A stretch of 42,324 nucleotides of DNA from Bacillota bacterium (GTDB lineage: Bacteria > Bacillota > Negativicutes > Sporomusales > CTSoil-080): NCBI GenBank assembly GCA_017889625.1, contig JAGGAD010000051.1:1-42324 (forward strand), given 5' to 3'. The first letter of the stretch is position 1. Every line of letters starts with the position of its first letter. The notes beneath the pieces were generated by a model. The model saw only the letters and a list, made by a program, of their open reading frames with translations. It made no database searches and was not told where the DNA came from. Shown in pieces: positions 28,072-42,075 of this stretch. Position numbers and translations under genes: made by a program.

Positions 28072-28350
28072 AATCACGCTCCTTTTGAAGAATCCTCCCC
28101 AGCGCCGTTGGCCCGAAATAAGCAGTGAAGTACGCTGGCTGCGCTTAGTTCATAACAGAAAATTAAACTGGTTTAGCAACATAAAAACGCGCCTCTAACA
28201 AAGAGGCGCGCGCAAAAATACTATATAGCCCTAAATATATTGTGCTTACATTGCCGTCTCGGTCGAGTTATGATCCAAGCGGGTTCAACTTATTAAATTA
28301 GCTTTATAAAAGTCCGTGTATGTAAGATTCAAAATTGATACCTTCATACG
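28072..28350 (-). ncRNA. Long structured 5' leader of the pan operon
   Basis: Between the predicted start site (about 28350) and the gene lie roughly 280 transcribed bases. The 5' part can form CCGTATG/CATAC-CGG, or alternatively CTTACAT can pair with a distant ATGTAAG. This is followed by a strong terminator hairpin (28188-28210), and then about 115 bases with a CCAGCG/CGCTGG stem before AAGGAG. Competing stems plus an internal terminator suggest attenuation or a riboswitch. A pan RNA motif is known upstream of pan genes in some bacteria; I could not confirm a match by eye. No T-box signature is present. Confidence 0.45.
28188..28210 (-). terminator. Intrinsic terminator inside the pan leader
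   Basis: On the minus strand CGCGCCTC, a seven-base loop and GAGGCGCG are followed directly by TTTTT. It sits between the predicted promoter and the first gene, so it can stop transcription before the operon. No gene upstream needs it, because the TetR gene points the other way. Confidence 0.85.
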
Positions 28351-34628: not shown

Positions 34629-34805
34629 ACGTCCTCCGCTAATTAAATGGCACAACAATGTCACTATTGACGATTATTTCCATGATATAATGGTATCATA
34701 AAAGTTTTCCAAAAACCAAATACATTTTGTTGTTTTTAAGGCTTAGTTAAATGCTAAGTCTTTTTATTTTGCCATGGGTAGATAGTTTAAAAGGAGGATT
34801 TTAAA
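34629..34805 (+). promoter_or_regulatory. Promoter-leader module 1 of the beta-helix genes
   Basis: It contains CGTCCTCCGCTAATTAAATG, then ATGATATAATGGTATCAT (34682-34699), a dyad that includes a TATAAT -10 box. A hairpin AGGCTTAG/CTAAGTCT (34739-34761) follows, then TTTTTATTTT, then AAGGAGG before the ATG. The hairpin plus T run is an intrinsic terminator within the leader. The upstream stretch 34426-34628 shows nothing recognisable. Confidence 0.6.
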
Positions 34806-36635
34806 ATGGTATACTCAAGCTCGAATTCATTAACAGTTCCTGCCGATACCACAGTTACAATCAGTGAAACAACCACTCTCTCTGAACTGATTATTAACTC
34901 TGGCGGCAATCTAGTGGCTCCATCAGGCTATAGCCTGACCCTAACAGTCGACGGGGTCGAAACGGGCCAAGAACTGGAAACAACAAACGGCACTGATACA
35001 GTGTTCGTCAGCGGTGAATACAGTGGCGACATTGTGCTCACAGTGACGGAGACTAACCCGCACACGTTCTATGAATTGACTTTCCCGTTTCGCCAGGCTC
35101 TCTATCTCGATGCGGACGGCATTGAAGAAGATCTGTCCGTCCTTTCAGCCATCAACGGTACTGCCTCTTCTCTTCAAGACTTAACAATCATCTCGACAGG
35201 CATGGACTTCAATGGCATCTACGTCGCCGGGGGAAGTTACACGCTCAATAACATCAATATCGACCTGGACGGCGACGGACGCTGTGATTTTGTCGGCTAT
35301 GGCGCTGCTGTTATGGGTACTGGAAGCGACACCACACTGGTCCTGGACAACGCCAATATCGTCACCCACGGCGTAGTCCGCACTGGGGTAATTGCTGGTG
35401 ATGGAAGCAATTTGATTGTCAAGAATTCCACCATCTCTACTAAACAAGGCACACTGCCTTCTGATTACGTGCAAACCGTCTATCCAGCCTATATGAGGTC
35501 GGTACCCTGGATGCTTGGCATCGACGGCACCGAAAACCTCCGTTCCACCAATGTGCTCGGCACCAACACTAAAGCCACCTACATCAATTCTACCATCACC
35601 TCCGATGGCTGGGGAGTTCTTTCCACCGATTCCGGCTCCAACCAAACACTAACCGCAATCAACAGCAAGATTTCCACCTCCGGCAATGAGGGATACGGCA
35701 CCTATGCCGACGGCAAACCTTACGAGTATCTCTATGGCTGTAAATTTAACGTAGGCAGTTATGCGGTCATCAACAATACTGGCTATATCTACTTCGACGA
35801 CAGTTCCGCCGATAACGTTGCAGCCCTCAACACTAGCTTATCCCTCGGTCTCACCGACGAAGAACTCGCAGCCATTACCCAGAAATCGACCATTATAAAC
35901 TCAGACCGTTTCGGCGTGATGTGGCACAGTTCCAGCGGCACAGTAAATGTGGCCGGCGGCACGGCGATCAACACCGCTGAAACCGCCTTCCTGGCCAAGA
36001 CCTCCAATGCCATCACCATCACCATCGACGGTTCCGATGGCGCCCAGATCAATCCCCAAAACGGCATTATTTTGCAAGTGATGGACGACGACGACCCCGG
36101 AATAGCTTCTGATAAGTCCAACACCGCAACCTACACGGATCCATATTATGGGACCACTGACACCCCCACGGCGGATACGTCATTTGATCTTACTTCAACA
36201 ACCGACGCCGCAGCACTAAACCTCAACAACATTACCCTAACGGGGAACTGTTATAACTCGATTGGCTGGACCAGCTCCAGCACTTCCACCCAGAATATGG
36301 TAGTTACCCTCACTAACGCCAGCCTTACTGGCATGATCTCATCAACTGAAGCCCATCACCGCGTTGCCACCATCAGTGCTTCGGAATACCAGGAAATAGG
36401 TGAGGTTACCAACACGCCTCGCGCGGCGATCAACAACGGCACCATCGTCGTTTTGAACTCCGGCTCCGAGTGGACAGTGACCAGCACCTCTTATCTCACC
36501 TCACTTACGATTGACTCGGACTCAACGATTACCGTTCCCAATGGGAACAGCGTTTCCATGACCGTCGACGGCACTGTTACGTCAATCGTTCCCGGTACGA
36601 CATATACTGGAGCGATCATACTGACTGTCAACTAG
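34806..36635 (+). CDS. Beta-helix-like repetitive protein, paralogue 1 (609 residues)
   Basis: Rich in Thr, Ser, Asn, Asp, Gly and Val with very few Cys, and built of short strand-turn units such as NANIVTHGVVRTGVIAGDGS and NLIVKNSTISTKQG, which suggests a right-handed parallel beta-helix. The N-terminal ~75 residues and the C-terminal ~65 are related to each other (each has a P-x-G-x-S…TVDG…Y-x-G-x-I-x-LTV pattern). The middle has distinctive blocks: MRSVPWMLGIDGTEN, DRFGVMWHSSSGTVNVAGGT, QVMDDDDPGI, STEAHHRVATIS. No signal peptide, SLH, LPXTG or barrel is visible, so location is unclear. AAGGAGG precedes the ATG. A close paralogue follows. No function is known to me. Confidence 0.75.
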   Translation: MVYSSSNSLTVPADTTVTISETTTLSELIINSGGNLVAPSGYSLTLTVDGVETGQELETTNGTDTVFVSGEYSGDIVLTVTETNPHTFYELTFPFRQALYLDADGIEEDLSVLSAINGTASSLQDLTIISTGMDFNGIYVAGGSYTLNNINIDLDGDGRCDFVGYGAAVMGTGSDTTLVLDNANIVTHGVVRTGVIAGDGSNLIVKNSTISTKQGTLPSDYVQTVYPAYMRSVPWMLGIDGTENLRSTNVLGTNTKATYINSTITSDGWGVLSTDSGSNQTLTAINSKISTSGNEGYGTYADGKPYEYLYGCKFNVGSYAVINNTGYIYFDDSSADNVAALNTSLSLGLTDEELAAITQKSTIINSDRFGVMWHSSSGTVNVAGGTAINTAETAFLAKTSNAITITIDGSDGAQINPQNGIILQVMDDDDPGIASDKSNTATYTDPYYGTTDTPTADTSFDLTSTTDAAALNLNNITLTGNCYNSIGWTSSSTSTQNMVVTLTNASLTGMISSTEAHHRVATISASEYQEIGEVTNTPRAAINNGTIVVLNSGSEWTVTSTSYLTSLTIDSDSTITVPNGNSVSMTVDGTVTSIVPGTTYTGAIILTVN

Positions 36636-36679
36636 AGGTAGAACTAAGACAATAATGCTGAGTAAATGATGACATCTAT

Positions 36680-36805
36680 CTACGCCAGGCAAAAAACGGC
36701 TACCACATATTCTGTGGTAGCCGTTTTTTTTTGATCAAACAAACCGTCTTCCATGGGACGCAGAATGTTTTTCTTGATTTTTTCTATGTTTTCCTTGCTA
36801 ATCAT
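36680..36805 (-). other. Short minus-strand frame ending in the terminator (41 codons)
   Basis: GGAG then ATG at 36805 opens MISKENIEKIKKNILRPMED and continues GLFDQKK, then runs through the terminator hairpin to a stop at 36680. A similar tail, RPLEEGLFDQKK and stop, occurs on the minus strand after paralogue 2 (39186-39223). The shared tail may be a small-gene remnant duplicated with the unit. Low certainty. Confidence 0.3.
36696..36731 (+). terminator. Intrinsic terminator of beta-helix gene 1
   Basis: ACGGCTACCACA pairs perfectly with TGTGGTAGCCGT around a five-base loop, followed by eight Ts. Almost the same terminator follows paralogue 2. Confidence 0.92.
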
Positions 36806-36835
36806 ACTACAACTCCGAATATTTTACCGTCCGAG

Positions 36836-37058
36836 CGTCCTCCACTAATTAAATAACACAATGCTGCCACTTTTACTGATAAATTCCATGATAAAATGAG
36901 ATCATTAAATAGTTGCAAAAACAAATAGTTTTTATTGTTTTTTAGGCTTAGTTATACGCTAAGTCTTTCTGTTGTACTTGGATAGATAAATATAAAATGA
37001 TGATTTTAAAATAAGATACTCAAGTTCGAATTCCCGACAACATCACGCTTATAATCAC
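36836..37058 (+). pseudogene. Decayed middle copy of the beta-helix unit
   Basis: This stretch repeats the promoter-leader of module 1 (CGTCCTCCACTAATTAAATA, ATGATAAAATGAGATCAT, hairpin AGGCTTAG…CTAAGTCT at 36944-36966). The ribosome binding site has become AAATGATG and the start codon region reads ATAAGATACTCAAGTTCGAA instead of ATGGTATACTCAAG. After about 17 recognisable codons the gene is gone and the leader of paralogue 2 begins. It is a deleted third copy. Confidence 0.7.
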
Positions 37059-37061
37059 CAA

Positions 37062-37252
37062 CTTGACACAATAATGACACTTTCGCCAATGATTTCCGTG
37101 ATAAAATGAGATCATAAAAGATTTCTGAAAAACGAATAATTTTGTTGTTTTAAAGGCTTAGTTAACTACTAAGTCTTTTTATTTTTAAGGCTTAGTTAAT
37201 ACTGAGTCTTTTGTTTTGCTATGGGTAGATAAATATAAAGGAGGATTTTAGA
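37062..37252 (+). promoter_or_regulatory. Promoter-leader module 3 with two tandem hairpins
   Basis: Same layout as module 1: GTGATAAAATGAGATCAT (-10 and dyad), then AGGCTTAG…CTAAGTCT + T run (37154-37180), then a second hairpin AGGCTTAG…CTGAGTCT + TT (37188-37211), then AAGGAGG before the ATG. The terminator-like hairpin has been duplicated here. Confidence 0.6.
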
Positions 37253-39094
37253 ATGGTATATTCAACTTCGAGTTCATTAACAGTTCCTGCCGATACTACG
37301 GTTACAATCAGTGAAACGACCTCTCTCTCTGAACTGATTATCGAGTCAGGCGGCAATCTCGTGGCTCCCACAGGCTATAGCCTAACCTTAACCGTAGACG
37401 GGGTTGAAACAGGGCAAGAACTAGAGACAACAACCGGCGTTGACACTGTGTTCGTCGCTGGCACCTACAGCGGTACTATCGTACTTACAGTAACAGAGAC
37501 CAATTCACAAACGTACAGTGATTTGACCTTCCCGCTTCGCGAAGCCCTATATCTTGATGCGGATGGCATTGATGAAGATCTGTCCGTCCTTTCAGCCGTC
37601 GTCGGCGGAACAGCGACAGCCGCTTCCCTTGAAGGATTCACAATCAACTCAACCGGCATGGACTTCAACGGCATCTTCGTCGCCGGGGGCAGCTACGAGG
37701 TCAATGACGTCAACATCACCCTGGACGGCGATGGCCGCAGTGATATGGCAGGCTATGGCACGGCCGTTGTTGGTACTGGAACCGACACCACGCTGGTTCT
37801 GGACGGCGTCAATATCAACACCCATGGCGTTACCCGCACCGGAGTAATTGCCAGTGGCGGAAGCAATGTGATTGTCAAGAATTCCAACATCGCTACTAAA
37901 CAAGGCACACTGCCTTCCGATTACGTACAAACTGTCGATCAGTCCCAGATGAGGTCAGTCCCCTGGATGCTGGGCATCAACGGTACTGAAAACGTCCGCT
38001 CCACCAATCTAATCGGCACTGATACTAAGGCCGCCTATATCAATTCAAAAATCACCTCCGATGGCTGGGGCGTTCTCTCCGTCGATTCCGGCTCCAACCA
38101 AACCCTCACCGCGATCAACAGCACAATTTCCACCTCCGGCAATGAGGGCTACGGCACCTATGCCATCGGTAATCCCTACGAGTATCTCTATGGTTGTACA
38201 TTCAACGTGGGCAGCTACGCGGTAATCAACACAGGCGGTTATCTATACTTCGACGACAGCTCCGCTGAGAACGTTGCGGCGCTCAACACTAGCGTCCCCC
38301 TAGGTCTCACCGACGAAGAGCTCGCAGCCATTACCCAGAAACCGACCCATATCACCTCGGACCGTTTTGGCGTGATGTGGCATAGTTCCAGCGGCACAGT
38401 CAATGTGGCCGGCGGCACGAAGATCACCACCGCTGAAACCGCCTTCCTGGCCAAGACCACCGAGGCCATCACCATCACCATCGACGGTTCCGATGGCGCC
38501 AAAATCACCCCCGCTAACGGGATTATCTTGCAAGTGATGGACGACGACGACCCCGGAGTGGTGGGCACCGCTTTGTCCAACACCGCTACGTACACAGATC
38601 CCTATTATGGCACTACCACCACACCAACGGCGGATACGTCATTTGATCTTACCTCGACGACCGACGCCGCAGCCCTAAACCTCAGCAACATCACCTTGAC
38701 GGGACATTGTTATAACGCGATAGGCTGGACCAGCTCCAGCACTACCGAACAAAACATGGTAGTTACCCTTGATAACGCCAACCTTACCGGCGTGATTTCT
38801 TCAACCGAAGCCCATCACCGCGTTGCCACCATCAGTTCTTCGGAATACACGGAACTGGGCGAAGTTACCAATACTCCTCGCGCGGCGATCAACAACGGCG
38901 CCATCGTCGTTTTAGGCTCCGACTCCAAATGGACAGTTACCGCTACTTCTTATCTCACTTCGCTTACGCTTGACTCAACCTCAACGATCACTGCTCCCAA
39001 AGGGTACAGCGTCTCCATGACCGTTGATGGCACTACCACAGCAATCGTTGCCGGCACAACATATACTGGAGCAATCGTACTGACAGTCGCCTAA
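37253..39094 (+). CDS. Beta-helix-like repetitive protein, paralogue 2 (613 residues)
   Basis: Closely similar to paralogue 1 from end to end (by eye, most residues identical), with the same N-terminal and C-terminal modules and the same core blocks: MRSVPWMLGINGTEN, DRFGVMWHSSSGTVNVAGGT, STEAHHRVATIS. Differences cluster in surface-like turn positions. The DNA has many synonymous changes, so the duplication is not recent or the copies are under selection to keep the protein. AAGGAGG precedes the ATG. Like its twin it lacks export or anchoring signals. It could be a spore-coat, storage or surface protein, or an enzyme with a beta-helix fold; I cannot tell. Confidence 0.75.
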   Translation: MVYSTSSSLTVPADTTVTISETTSLSELIIESGGNLVAPTGYSLTLTVDGVETGQELETTTGVDTVFVAGTYSGTIVLTVTETNSQTYSDLTFPLREALYLDADGIDEDLSVLSAVVGGTATAASLEGFTINSTGMDFNGIFVAGGSYEVNDVNITLDGDGRSDMAGYGTAVVGTGTDTTLVLDGVNINTHGVTRTGVIASGGSNVIVKNSNIATKQGTLPSDYVQTVDQSQMRSVPWMLGINGTENVRSTNLIGTDTKAAYINSKITSDGWGVLSVDSGSNQTLTAINSTISTSGNEGYGTYAIGNPYEYLYGCTFNVGSYAVINTGGYLYFDDSSAENVAALNTSVPLGLTDEELAAITQKPTHITSDRFGVMWHSSSGTVNVAGGTKITTAETAFLAKTTEAITITIDGSDGAKITPANGIILQVMDDDDPGVVGTALSNTATYTDPYYGTTTTPTADTSFDLTSTTDAAALNLSNITLTGHCYNAIGWTSSSTTEQNMVVTLDNANLTGVISSTEAHHRVATISSSEYTELGEVTNTPRAAINNGAIVVLGSDSKWTVTATSYLTSLTLDSTSTITAPKGYSVSMTVDGTTTAIVAGTTYTGAIVLTVA

Positions 39095-39153: not shown

Positions 39154-39188
39154 CGGCTACCACATATTTTGTGGTAGCCGCTATTTTT
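39154..39188 (+). terminator. Intrinsic terminator of beta-helix gene 2
   Basis: CGGCTACCACA pairs perfectly with TGTGGTAGCCG around a five-base loop, then a T run after a short CTA. It is a near copy of the terminator of paralogue 1, including the flanking TTTTGATCAAACAAACC. Confidence 0.9.
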
Positions 39189-39235
39189 TTTGATCAAACA
39201 AACCTTCTTCCAACGGACGACTAGTCAGCTGCCGG

Positions 39236-39293: not shown

Positions 39294-39932
39294 ATGTTGC
39301 ATGGTGATGACGGTCAGCCAAAAGACGTCAGCGAATGCTACTGCGGCTGCATTGAAGAATCAAAACCATTATTAAATAAAATTGTTGTCCTCGACCCTGG
39401 TCATGGAGGTATTTATACGGGAGCCATAAACTATGGCTTTCGAGAATCTGATATTAATCTGTCGGTCGCTCTTAAACTACGCAAAAAACTAGCCAGGTTA
39501 GGGGCTACAGTTATTATGACGCGAAAACGTGATGTTAGTCTAGCGCCAGCTGGCTCGACTCTTGACGCCGATCTCCAAGCAAGAGTAGATGTTGCTAAAA
39601 CCTCTGACGCTGATATTTTCGTAAGCCTGCATGTTGATGATGTTCCAAATATCAATCTTCTAGGTCCTACCAGTTACTTCCCCAAAGGACGTTCTTCTGG
39701 CCTTGCCTACGCTATCCAAACTTCTTTAGTAAATGGAATAATCTGCACAGTTGATAATGGTGTTAGCCCAGCCGATTTTTATGTGCTCGTCCATAATGAC
39801 ATGCCCGCAGCCTTAATTGAATTAGGTTATCTATCCAATCCTTCGGAAGCATTATGTCTTATGGATAATACCTATCAAAATCTAATAGCTAACAGCATTT
39901 TAAATGGCATTATTAACTACTTTCTGTGCTAA
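39294..39932 (+). CDS. N-acetylmuramoyl-L-alanine amidase (Amidase_3)
   Basis: 212 residues. Zinc ligands are His37 (DPGHGG), Glu51 (GFRESD) and His113 (SLHVDD), with the catalytic Glu176 in ALIELGYLSNPSE. The fold is a complete Amidase_3 domain that cuts the bond between N-acetylmuramic acid and the peptide stem. It is unusual in lacking a signal peptide; instead it has a Cys-rich leader (ECYCGCIEE, 14-22). GGGAGGGAAG precedes the ATG. Sporulation amidases are possible relatives, and a sigma-K-like promoter is possible. Entry to the wall by lysis, a mother-cell role or non-classical export would each explain the missing signal. Confidence 0.88.
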   Translation: MLHGDDGQPKDVSECYCGCIEESKPLLNKIVVLDPGHGGIYTGAINYGFRESDINLSVALKLRKKLARLGATVIMTRKRDVSLAPAGSTLDADLQARVDVAKTSDADIFVSLHVDDVPNINLLGPTSYFPKGRSSGLAYAIQTSLVNGIICTVDNGVSPADFYVLVHNDMPAALIELGYLSNPSEALCLMDNTYQNLIANSILNGIINYFLC

Positions 39933-40140: not shown

Positions 40141-41523
40141 CTATGCTAAATTGCTTTCGCCATCTTCTTCATTTTTGATTTTTGCTTTAAGTAGCTTGTA
40201 AATCACCCCAAGCATTATAAACCATACCGGGGTTACAAATAGGGCTACACGAGTTTCATTATTAAGTGCTAATACAACTATAACAAAAGCCAAAAATGCT
40301 AAAATTATATAGTTAGCAATTGGGTAAAACGGCATTTTAAATTTGCTCTTAGCAGCAAGCCCAGGATTAGTTTCTCGATATCTTAGATGGCAGATAACCA
40401 TAATTGCCCAAATAAAGATAAAGCAGAATGTCGATATACTTGTAATTAGTACAAATACCCCTTCGGGCATAATATAGTTCAAAATAACAGAAATCAAGAT
40501 GACAGTTGCCGAGAACATTGTAGCATTAGAAGGCACTTGGTTGGAAGTTAATTTTTTCATTGACTCAGGTGCATTATTCTCCTTGGCAAGAGAATAAACC
40601 ATACGGCTTGTACTGAAGATACCGCTGTTACAAGCGGATGCAGCTGATGTTAGTACAACGAAATTTACAATACTTGCTGCTGCTACGATTCCCACTGCAG
40701 CAAAAACCTGTACAAATGGGCTTTTATCAGGACTAATTGAAGTCCATGGGTATATACTCATGATAACAAAAAGTGCTCCAACATAGAAAATAATGATTCT
40801 AATTGGAATATTATTAATAGCCTTTGGAATAACATGTTCTGGATTTTCAGTTTCACCAGCTGTTAAACCAACTAATTCGATTCCAGTAAAAGCAAATACA
40901 ACCATTTGGAAAGAAAGGATAAAACCGCTTATCCCATTTGGGAACCAGCCGCCATGACTCCAAAGATTTGTAAAGCTAGATACACCAGCATCTGTAGAAA
41001 ACCCTTTAAAAATCATAAATATACCAATTATAATTAGTGCTAGAATTGCAACAACTTTGATCAAGGCAAACCAAAATTCCATTTCACCAAATAACTTTAC
41101 GGTGGTAAGGTTCATAGTCAGCAAGACTACAAGAACTATAAGGCTTGGAACCCATTGAGCTATATTGGGGAACCAGTATTGTATATAAAGTCCCGCAGCA
41201 GTTAAGTCAGCCATCGCAAGTGAAATCCAGCAGAACCAGTAGGTCCATCCAGTAATAAATGCTGCTCCGTTTCCTAGATAATCATGTACAAAGTCTACAA
41301 AGGAATGATATTTTAAATTTGAAAGTAATAATTCCCCAAGGGCACGCATAATAAAAAAACAAACGACCCCTGTTATCATATACGCAAATAAAATAGATGG
41401 ACCTGCCAAATGAATTGACCTGCCTGAACCTAGAAATAAGCCAGTCCCAATTGCCCCACCAATCGCGAGTAATTGAACATGGCGATTTTTTAGGCCTCTC
41501 GATAAATTCTGATTTTCTGACAT
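40141..41523 (-). CDS. Amino-acid permease, APC family (glycine/alanine/serine type)
   Basis: 460 residues, twelve membrane helices, of the AAT branch of the APC superfamily. The opening LKNRHVQLLAIGGAIGTGLFLGSG is the classical permease signature, and FAFTGIELVGLTAGETENPEHVIPKA is the second. In sequence it resembles CycA/AnsP-type carriers. The tandem glycine riboswitch in its leader makes glycine (or alanine/serine) the likely substrate. AAAGGCGG lies 12 bases before the ATG. Monocistronic. Confidence 0.88.
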   Translation of the reverse strand: MSENQNLSRGLKNRHVQLLAIGGAIGTGLFLGSGRSIHLAGPSILFAYMITGVVCFFIMRALGELLLSNLKYHSFVDFVHDYLGNGAAFITGWTYWFCWISLAMADLTAAGLYIQYWFPNIAQWVPSLIVLVVLLTMNLTTVKLFGEMEFWFALIKVVAILALIIIGIFMIFKGFSTDAGVSSFTNLWSHGGWFPNGISGFILSFQMVVFAFTGIELVGLTAGETENPEHVIPKAINNIPIRIIIFYVGALFVIMSIYPWTSISPDKSPFVQVFAAVGIVAAASIVNFVVLTSAASACNSGIFSTSRMVYSLAKENNAPESMKKLTSNQVPSNATMFSATVILISVILNYIMPEGVFVLITSISTFCFIFIWAIMVICHLRYRETNPGLAAKSKFKMPFYPIANYIILAFLAFVIVVLALNNETRVALFVTPVWFIMLGVIYKLLKAKIKNEEDGESNLA

Positions 41524-41711: not shown

Positions 41712-41730
41712 AAAATAAAACAGCTAATTA

Positions 41731-41888
41731 GCTCTGTCCTTTTACCTGAGAGATTCACTGATTTAAAATATAATCAGCTTGCTCCTTCGGTGCTCTTCAT
41801 TGAGGCTCTCCAGAGTTTCGTCCAATAACGGTCCTTTTGCCTGAAAGAATAACATCTTCGGCGGATTATCAAATCTCTCTCCCATTAT
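41731..41888 (-). ncRNA. Tandem glycine riboswitch (gcvT type)
   Basis: Read on the minus strand, the first aptamer has GGGAGAG, CCGCCGAAG and TCTTTCAGGCAAAAGGACC. The linker and second aptamer read ACTCTGGAGAG, CACCGAAGGAGCAAGC and ATCTCTCAGGTAAAAGGACAG. These are the conserved blocks of both halves of the cooperative glycine riboswitch. It ends about 208 bases before the permease start, with a terminator-like hairpin between. Confidence 0.95.
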
Positions 41889-42075
41889 CTTCATACGAAG
41901 TTCAATATTAAATTGGTAGTACATTCACATAATTTATCATCTATCTTTATAAATGTCAACGGAAAACAAACATTTATATATTCTGTATGTACATTTAGCT
42001 TTTTTTAATTCCTTTTTATTCAATATGTGAATAAATCTAGTATTTCCAGAAGGCAGATATCTAAACCAAAACCTG

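Follow-up and report, generated by a model that had tools for sequence, protein, structure and literature searches.

An unnamed, widespread beta-helix protein family, signal-less and duplicated in a Sporomusales lineage, with a possible part in phenolic catabolism

Two neighbouring genes in a 42,324-nucleotide contig of an anaerobic Bacillota bacterium from soil (JAGGAD010000051.1; the whole stretch is called the window here) code for right-handed parallel beta-helix proteins of ~600 residues, which belong to a widespread family that has no name. The original prediction named no function for them; the gene neighbourhoods of their homologues now point to aromatic or polyphenol catabolism. We give an even chance to the proposal that the family serves the use of aromatic or phenolic compounds, probably plant polyphenols, by binding or converting them.

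Results

The gene pair

The tandem pair of related ~610-residue proteins was found exactly where it had been predicted (Table 1), as direct repeats with 617 nt between them, and the products, P0001 and P0002, are 82% identical. A ribosome-binding site, AAAGGAGG, stands 8 nt 5' of the ATG in both genes, so that the starts are secure and leave a signal peptide no room, in agreement with the predicted absence of an export signal. Across five copies compared, dN/dS is 0.17–0.26, which identifies both ORFs as genes under purifying selection and rules out chance ORFs. Gene 2 clusters with a copy from the sister genus in the tree (100/97), indicating that the duplication is older than the genus split.

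Between the genes lies the remnant of a third tandem copy, whose start codon has decayed from ATG to ATA at about 37011–37013 according to the leader alignment. The leader hairpin pattern is confined to beta-helix genes in the window and sister genomes searched. A terminator-like hairpin 3' of gene 1, read straight from the sequence and absent from the hairpin scanner's list, suggests that gene 1 may be transcribed on its own; a promoter scan gave a signal no higher than in shuffled sequences.

Table 1. Positions of the gene pair and associated features in the window
Feature	Position	Strand	Description	Evidence
Gene 1 (P0001)	34806..36635	+	609 aa, predicted right-handed parallel beta-helix, without signal peptide	ORF, RBS, AF2 model, homologues
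Gene 2 (P0002)	37253..39094	+	613 aa, gene 1 paralogue	ORF, RBS
RBS of gene 1	34790-34797	+		Sequence
RBS of gene 2	37237-37244	+		Sequence
Third tandem copy remnant	36840..37060	+	Leader, decayed start and few codons	Leader alignment, sequence
Leader hairpin, upstream of gene 1	34738..34762	+	GGCTTAGTTAAATGCTAAGTC and U-rich tail	Sequence pattern
Leader hairpin, third-copy remnant	36944..36966	+	Same pattern	Sequence pattern
Leader hairpins, upstream of gene 2	37152..37210	+	Two, one after another	Sequence pattern
Terminator-like hairpin and T run, 3' of gene 1	36697..36732	+	CGGCTACCACA TATTC TGTGGTAGCCG TTTTTTTT	Direct sequence reading
Terminator-like hairpin, 3' of gene 2	39154..39190	+		Hairpin scanner

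Fold and family

The AlphaFold2 (AF2) model is a right-handed beta-helix of all-beta rungs (pLDDT 96.2, pTM 0.94), which supports the predicted fold of the window proteins. Foldseek returned nothing below E 1e-3, and no viral structure matched below 1e-3. VIA-align, whose candidates came only from Foldseek so that a family missing there may still be related, gave pertactin a Z of 25.0 (rmsd 4.1 over 355 residues) and mannuronan epimerases and tailspikes a Z of about 18–19; alginate epimerases and lyases, polygalacturonases and DFA-IIIase are also fold neighbours. Members of the beta-helix superfamily (pertactin, UpaB, AlgE epimerases, PL6 lyases, tailspikes) resemble the window proteins in fold, with Z 16–25 over about 250–350 residues, but share only 8–16% identity over aligned residues. 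Unlike autotransporters and tailspikes, the window proteins have no barrel or tailspike parts; a test for an autotransporter found neither a Sec signal nor a Pfam autotransporter domain, and the protein stops at its C-cap.

The original prediction had not recognised the family, and no Pfam, NCBIfam or PHROGs family scored above cut-off for the window proteins. Pfam Beta_helix (PF13229) leaves P0001 unmatched at E <= 1 and matches 13 of 50 family members at E <= 0.01. The G8 domain (PF10162), which occurs in CEMIP, TMEM2 and PKHD1, reaches 17.4 and 14.1 bits in the two proteins, under its 22.9-bit cut-off; the 17.4-bit likeness is a weak match of N-terminal cap residues 6–50 (E 0.0042), and only 3/50 family members match at all. 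No curated polysaccharide lyase, hydrolase or epimerase family was matched in Pfam or PDB sequences, and PF18089 (phloretin/DAPG hydrolase) is not among the Pfam families found for P0001 and P0002. The finding that would have spoken against the original prediction, homology to a phage tail fibre or to a secreted protein already characterised, did not appear: PDB sequences gave no match to a single sequence or the family profile, 50,697 phage records and PHROGs gave none either, and viral contigs held no relative. A plasmid search found one homologue, in Novosphingobium.

A genome scan placed the family at 77 loci in at least six phyla (31–82% identity), none on viral contigs. Homologues are dispersed and often multi-copy (the sister genome has 20 stretches that match), so the tandem arrangement, which had been singled out as worth checking, is not universal.

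Export signals

Nearly all complete homologues elsewhere bear Tat, Sec, lipoprotein or SLH features; the missing signal noted originally thus holds for the window's lineage and fails as a family trait. Copies from the window and from UBA7701 begin 2–9 residues ahead of the N-cap, where the export signal of other lineages is missing. Because this signal-less clade branches from among the exported members (100/100 in the tree), export was probably lost in the window's lineage; a non-classical export route for the window proteins is possible. The same genome encodes one paralogue that bears a signal, and two relatives of 1000 aa that do so too and have their C-cap in common with the family. Proteins related to these longer relatives also adjoin family members at two loci (L070 and L075).

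Conserved residues

We aligned 50 full-length sequences (33–82% identity to P0001) and counted conservation in the 45 homologues outside the window's own clade. VPW-x-L, R192, W269-G-x-x-S, GYG and D429 are invariant, a set that includes P234, W235 (45/45), L237, R192, W269, G270, S273, Y297 and D429 (45/45) and that the window proteins share; H374 is kept in 34 and R368 in 32. Four blocks had been predicted to be strictly conserved. VPWML, (R)xGVMxH and DDP are indeed kept across phyla, and STEAHHRV is not, its H518 being moderately conserved (28/45). Blocks kept in this way have the look of a functional site, in line with the original prediction.

From strand order, R192, R246, W269/S273/D275, Y297/Y300, R368/H374 and K398 are predicted to form a row on one helix face, which two conserved insertion loops, G215–G241 (LPxDY, VPWML) and M426–P431 (DDP), would cover. 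Row and loops together may form a site for a phenolic substrate, where binding and, most likely, chemical conversion would take place.

Gene neighbourhoods

Homologues often lie within aromatic-catabolism clusters containing an FAD hydroxylase, an extradiol-type dioxygenase, FAA hydrolase, OYE, a vinylphenol-reductase-like enzyme or UbiD/UbiX. Among aerobes, in Streptomyces, an FAD_binding_3 hydroxylase, FAA hydrolase, VOC protein, HisD-like DH and SDR stand upstream of Tat-exported homologues, the VOC neighbour resembling catechol 2,3-dioxygenase. The Oceanobacter neighbour hydroxylase resembles salicylate monooxygenase, and its locus further holds Rieske, cupin and amidohydrolase genes. In anaerobes, OYE and vinylphenol-reductase-like FAD enzymes adjoin homologues, and in the window genome a UbiD/UbiX-like operon, recognised by eye, lies close to the signal-bearing paralogue. 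Of 29 loci, 11 contain an FAA hydrolase where 0.7 would be expected (P about 2e-11, or about 3e-7 when counted as 8 independent lineages), in a test that drew on the same loci where the pattern was first noticed.

Many loci have no evident catabolic neighbours, among them those of Clostridium (L087), Moorella (L098), Holophaga (L092) and Parathalassolituus (L091), and these count against a role in polyphenol use. So does the window itself, where the pair is flanked by a MatE exporter, a DJ-1/PfpI protein, an amidase and an amino-acid permease and by no catabolic cluster. The amidase is CwlD-like (149 bits against a CwlD cut-off of 221.6), and a sporulation link through it was dropped because of this low score.

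Relation to known flavonoid systems

The host encodes three PF18089 (DAPG/phloretin hydrolase) genes, one of them adjoining two OYEs; PF18089 occurs in 24 of 300 genomes of the class. The sister MAG CTSoil_80 (family UBA7701) and Holophaga CTSoil_7 are reported to degrade flavonoids in tannin reactors, tannin-derived ones in the case of CTSoil_80; the same study reports that CHI and FCR were recovered in CTSoil_80 and 81, which also encode PHY (PMC8084988). Both CTSoil_80 and CTSoil_7 have beta-helix homologues. CHI, FCR and PHY occur in the same organisms as the beta-helix proteins (UBA7701, Holophaga, gut anaerobes), but the latter are not PF18089 members and would be a different component of a phenolic pathway. 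The aerobic naringenin (fde) and isoflavone (ifc) clusters combine an FAD hydroxylase with meta-cleavage type enzymes, as do the neighbours of Oceanobacter and Streptomyces homologues; the available parts of the cluster descriptions mention no beta-helix protein, and the likeness is one of enzyme types (PMC11303751, PMC11069340). Our literature search found nothing relevant joining beta-helix proteins with flavonoids.

Discussion

We propose that in other bacteria these proteins act on phenolics outside the cytoplasm, before the compounds are taken up and their rings split. The form found in the UBA7701 lineage would have lost its signal, been duplicated and come to act in the cytoplasm, where its partners would be reductive flavonoid-degrading enzymes: phloretin hydrolase and OYE-type and vinylphenol-reductase-like reductases. 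More tentatively, and with the balance somewhat against it, the family may be a new class of beta-helix enzymes, found in many phyla, that acts on polyphenols (flavonoids, tannin units) and not on carbohydrates, with a cytoplasm-retargeted, amplified branch in anaerobic tannin degraders. The top fold matches, non-enzymatic autotransporter passengers, count against the phenolic proposal.

The rival explanations appear weaker than the phenolic one. Most beta-helix enzymes act on polysaccharides, and a lyase, hydrolase or epimerase of that kind would fit the carbohydrate-active fold neighbours, the export of most relatives and the ABC transporters at some loci; FAA hydrolases, SDRs, amidohydrolases and ABC transporters would then be helpers in sugar-acid catabolism. 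FAA hydrolases, SDRs and amidohydrolases do serve sugar-acid pathways too, which weighs against the aromatic reading. We nevertheless consider a polysaccharide enzyme unlikely, since even the family profile matches no PL/GH family in Pfam or PDB sequences, many neighbours are specifically aromatic (salicylate-hydroxylase-like, extradiol-type, Rieske, UbiD/UbiX-like, vinylphenol-reductase-like) and a cytoplasmic lyase would be odd in the window's lineage. We judge equally improbable a non-catalytic structural or binding protein of UBA7701, cytoplasmic or spore-associated and amplified to many copies (for example, a spore coat protein or a sponge for toxic tannins). The absent signal peptide, the copy number in the sister genome, the structural passengers among the best fold matches and the CwlD-like amidases beside the window pair and a sister paralogue agree with it, but the window amidase falls under the CwlD cut-off, and the invariance of R192, W235, S273, Y297 and D429 across phyla, non-sporulating Proteobacteria included, exceeds what a scaffold needs.

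At this size, beta-helix proteins are usually extracellular, and some distant members (L066, L107) contain SLH-like sequence, judged by eye. It is nevertheless very unlikely that the window proteins are surface adhesins or resemble S-layer proteins and leave the cell non-classically, for instance by type I secretion: they have no barrel, SLH or sorting motif, their C-terminus is the cap module common to Tat- and Sec-exported relatives with no added secretion signal, and the signal-bearing proteins of the genome show that standard export is available. A phage tailspike or prophage remnant would share the fold but is scarcely credible, given that the phage and viral searches were empty and that the neighbours examined include no phage genes.

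Anaerobic polyphenol breakdown affects wetland carbon storage, and its enzymes are poorly annotated. Should the phenolic reading prove false, the shift from an exported to a signal-less form and the amplification would still call for explanation; if it is true, beta-helix enzymes would reach past carbohydrates. As a widespread, uncurated family tied to aromatic-catabolism genes, these proteins offer a concrete candidate for a missing step.

Tandem genes and their leaders

The window spans the whole of contig C23 (42,324 bases) of a 3.3-Mb genome at 98% completeness, and the two tandem open reading frames lie exactly where the original prediction placed them. Gene 1 and gene 2 alike are preceded by a strong ribosome-binding site, and because a terminator-like hairpin follows each (read from the sequence for gene 1, found by a scan for gene 2), the two are probably transcribed separately. 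The remnant of a third copy lies in the gap and retains a leader, hairpin and first codons alignable to both intact leaders, with its ATG changed to ATA. Across the window genome (G000) and its sister genome (G002) there are six instances of the leader hairpin GGCTTAGTTA...CTAAGTCTTT: four in the window, each upstream of gene 1, gene 2 or the remnant, and two in the sister genome, each just upstream of a family copy. Confined to family genes in these genomes, the hairpin with its U-rich tail is possibly an attenuator or RNA regulator.

Five family copies gave dN/dS values of 0.17–0.26. In the tree, each gene pairs with a different sister-genus copy (support 100/97 for gene 2, 91/76 for gene 1), which places their duplication before the genus split.

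An Amidase_3 protein without a signal peptide, CwlD-like and under the CwlD cut-off, directly follows the pair; a sister-genome paralogue (locus L120) likewise adjoins a CwlD-like amidase. Elsewhere in the window, tandem glycine riboswitch aptamers lie upstream of an amino-acid permease, and a pan motif RNA lies upstream of apparent panB/panC/panD genes.

Coordinates of features in the window and at homologue loci (L-handles)
Feature	Location	Positions	Strand
Gene 1 (609 aa)	Window	34806-36635	
Gene 2 (613 aa)	Window	37253-39094	
Leader hairpin with U-rich tail	Window	34738-34762	
Leader hairpin with U-rich tail	Window	36944-36966	
Leader hairpin with U-rich tail	Window	37152-37178	
Leader hairpin with U-rich tail	Window	37187-37210	
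Amidase_3 protein	Window	39294-39932	+
Amino-acid permease	Window	40141-41523	-
Glycine riboswitch aptamers	Window	41730-41894	-
Pan motif RNA	Window	28250-28347	-
~1000–1160-aa protein	L070	9865-12999	
~1000–1160-aa protein	L075	2-3496	
Paralogue beside cas-like genes	L127	5898-8422	
Novosphingobium plasmid homologue	L030	7845-9725	
~360-aa exported protein	L085	2097-3128	

Family, fold and conserved residues

The window proteins have no match above cut-off in Pfam, NCBIfam or PHROGs, and across the family only the general Beta_helix (13 of 50) and a sub-threshold G8 recur among Pfam matches. Our scan of 84,980 species genomes, from which 77 loci were kept, found homologues in Streptomyces, Nocardioides, Microbacterium, Actinospica, Thermogemmatispora, Clostridium, Moorella, Oscillospiraceae, Novosphingobium, Oceanobacter, Derxia, Holophagaceae, Treponema and others. 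In the window's class, matches of any kind are limited to 5 of 300 genomes, and three of these match solely through a 1000-aa relative's C-cap. The Novosphingobium sp. ES2-1 plasmid homologue has an apparently frameshifted C-terminus relative to the intact N. subterraneum copy (L100).

An AlphaFold2 model from 50 aligned homologues (pLDDT 96.2, pTM 0.94) aligned by VIA-align with the right-handed beta-helices of pertactin (Z 25.0, rmsd 4.1 over 355 residues), UpaB (Z 19.9), AlgE6 (Z 18.9) and several tailspikes (Z ~18); Foldseek returned no match with E < 1e-3 among PDB and viral structures. Both protein ends are related cap modules, visible directly in the sequence (LTVxxxTTVTISxTTxLSELxIxxGxxLxAPxGxSLTLTVDG... 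and SxWTVTxTSYLTSLTIxSxxxITxPxGxSVSMTVDG...).

Among 45 homologues outside the pair's close clade, there is no variation at R192, P234, W235, L237, W269, G270, S273, G296-Y297-G298 and D429, and almost none at Y300, K398 and D430; of the STEAHHRV block, originally taken as conserved, only H518 shows conservation, and that moderate. Two conserved insertions (~215-245 and ~425-470) bear LPxDY...VPWML and DDP, and strand order suggests that the conserved residues may share a common face. Because of the invariant polar and aromatic residues and the conserved lid-like loops, we infer that the family is catalytic.

Export signals

Nearly all complete homologues elsewhere have a Tat (MTLITRRSxLIAG in Streptomyces), Sec or lipoprotein (...LLTACG in Oceanobacter) N-terminus or SLH-like parts; the automatic score overlooked several evident Tat/Sec cases, which we added by eye, and loci L077 and L083 have no clear call. 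In the window pair and the UBA7701 copies, 2–9 residues precede the N-cap. The pair's clade is nested within exported relatives (100/100), which makes loss of the signal in that clade probable; on the tree, the export label must change three times or more. The window genome retains Sec signals on one paralogue (contig C34) and on two 1000-aa relatives.

The proteins at L070 and L075 adjoin the 600-aa family, group together by sequence and resemble these 1000-aa relatives (contigs C13 and C110). On contig C106, a signal-less beta-helix paralogue adjoins genes resembling CRISPR cas genes.

Neighbourhoods, hosts and interpretation

In Streptomyces, genes for a FAD_binding_3 hydroxylase, an FAA hydrolase, a VOC protein similar to catechol 2,3-dioxygenases, a histidinol-dehydrogenase-like protein and an SDR precede the homologue. 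The Oceanobacter locus has an FAD enzyme similar to salicylate monooxygenase, with Rieske, cupin, amidohydrolase and LysR genes; one LysR cluster, which we take to be NodD-like, is present at ~10 loci. FAA hydrolase occurs at 11 of the 29 loci tested, where its genome-wide number predicts 0.71 (P 2.4e-11, in a test run after the pattern had been seen; P 2.6e-7 counting only 8 independent lineages). In anaerobes, homologues lie beside OYE-type reductases and beside FAD enzymes whose nearest family is vinylphenol reductase, though they score under its cut-off; in the window genome, UbiD/UbiX-like genes, recognised by eye, lie near the C34 paralogue. A ~360-aa exported protein with no Pfam family is encoded immediately downstream of the homologue in Oceanobacter, Alteromonadaceae, Parathalassolituus and Derxia.

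The sister genome matches CTSoil_080, with coinciding loci. CTSoil_080 and two further Sporomusales UBA7701 MAGs increased in anoxic reactors fed with tannin, and CHI and FCR were recovered from CTSoil_80 and CTSoil_81 (PMC8084988); Holophaga CTSoil_7, from the same study, carries a homologue (L092). The sister genome has at least six close family copies, two interrupted by stops and several near contig ends, as usual for repeats. The window genome, placed automatically in the same family (UBA7701), has three PF18089 genes, one adjoining two OYE genes; PF18089 is found in 24 of 300 genomes of the class.

The main weakness of an aromatic or polyphenol reading at the window locus is that gene 1 and gene 2 themselves lie outside any catabolic cluster. 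Overall, the best-supported interpretation is that this beta-helix family serves aromatic or polyphenol use, with the window pair forming a signal-less, probably cytoplasmic branch.
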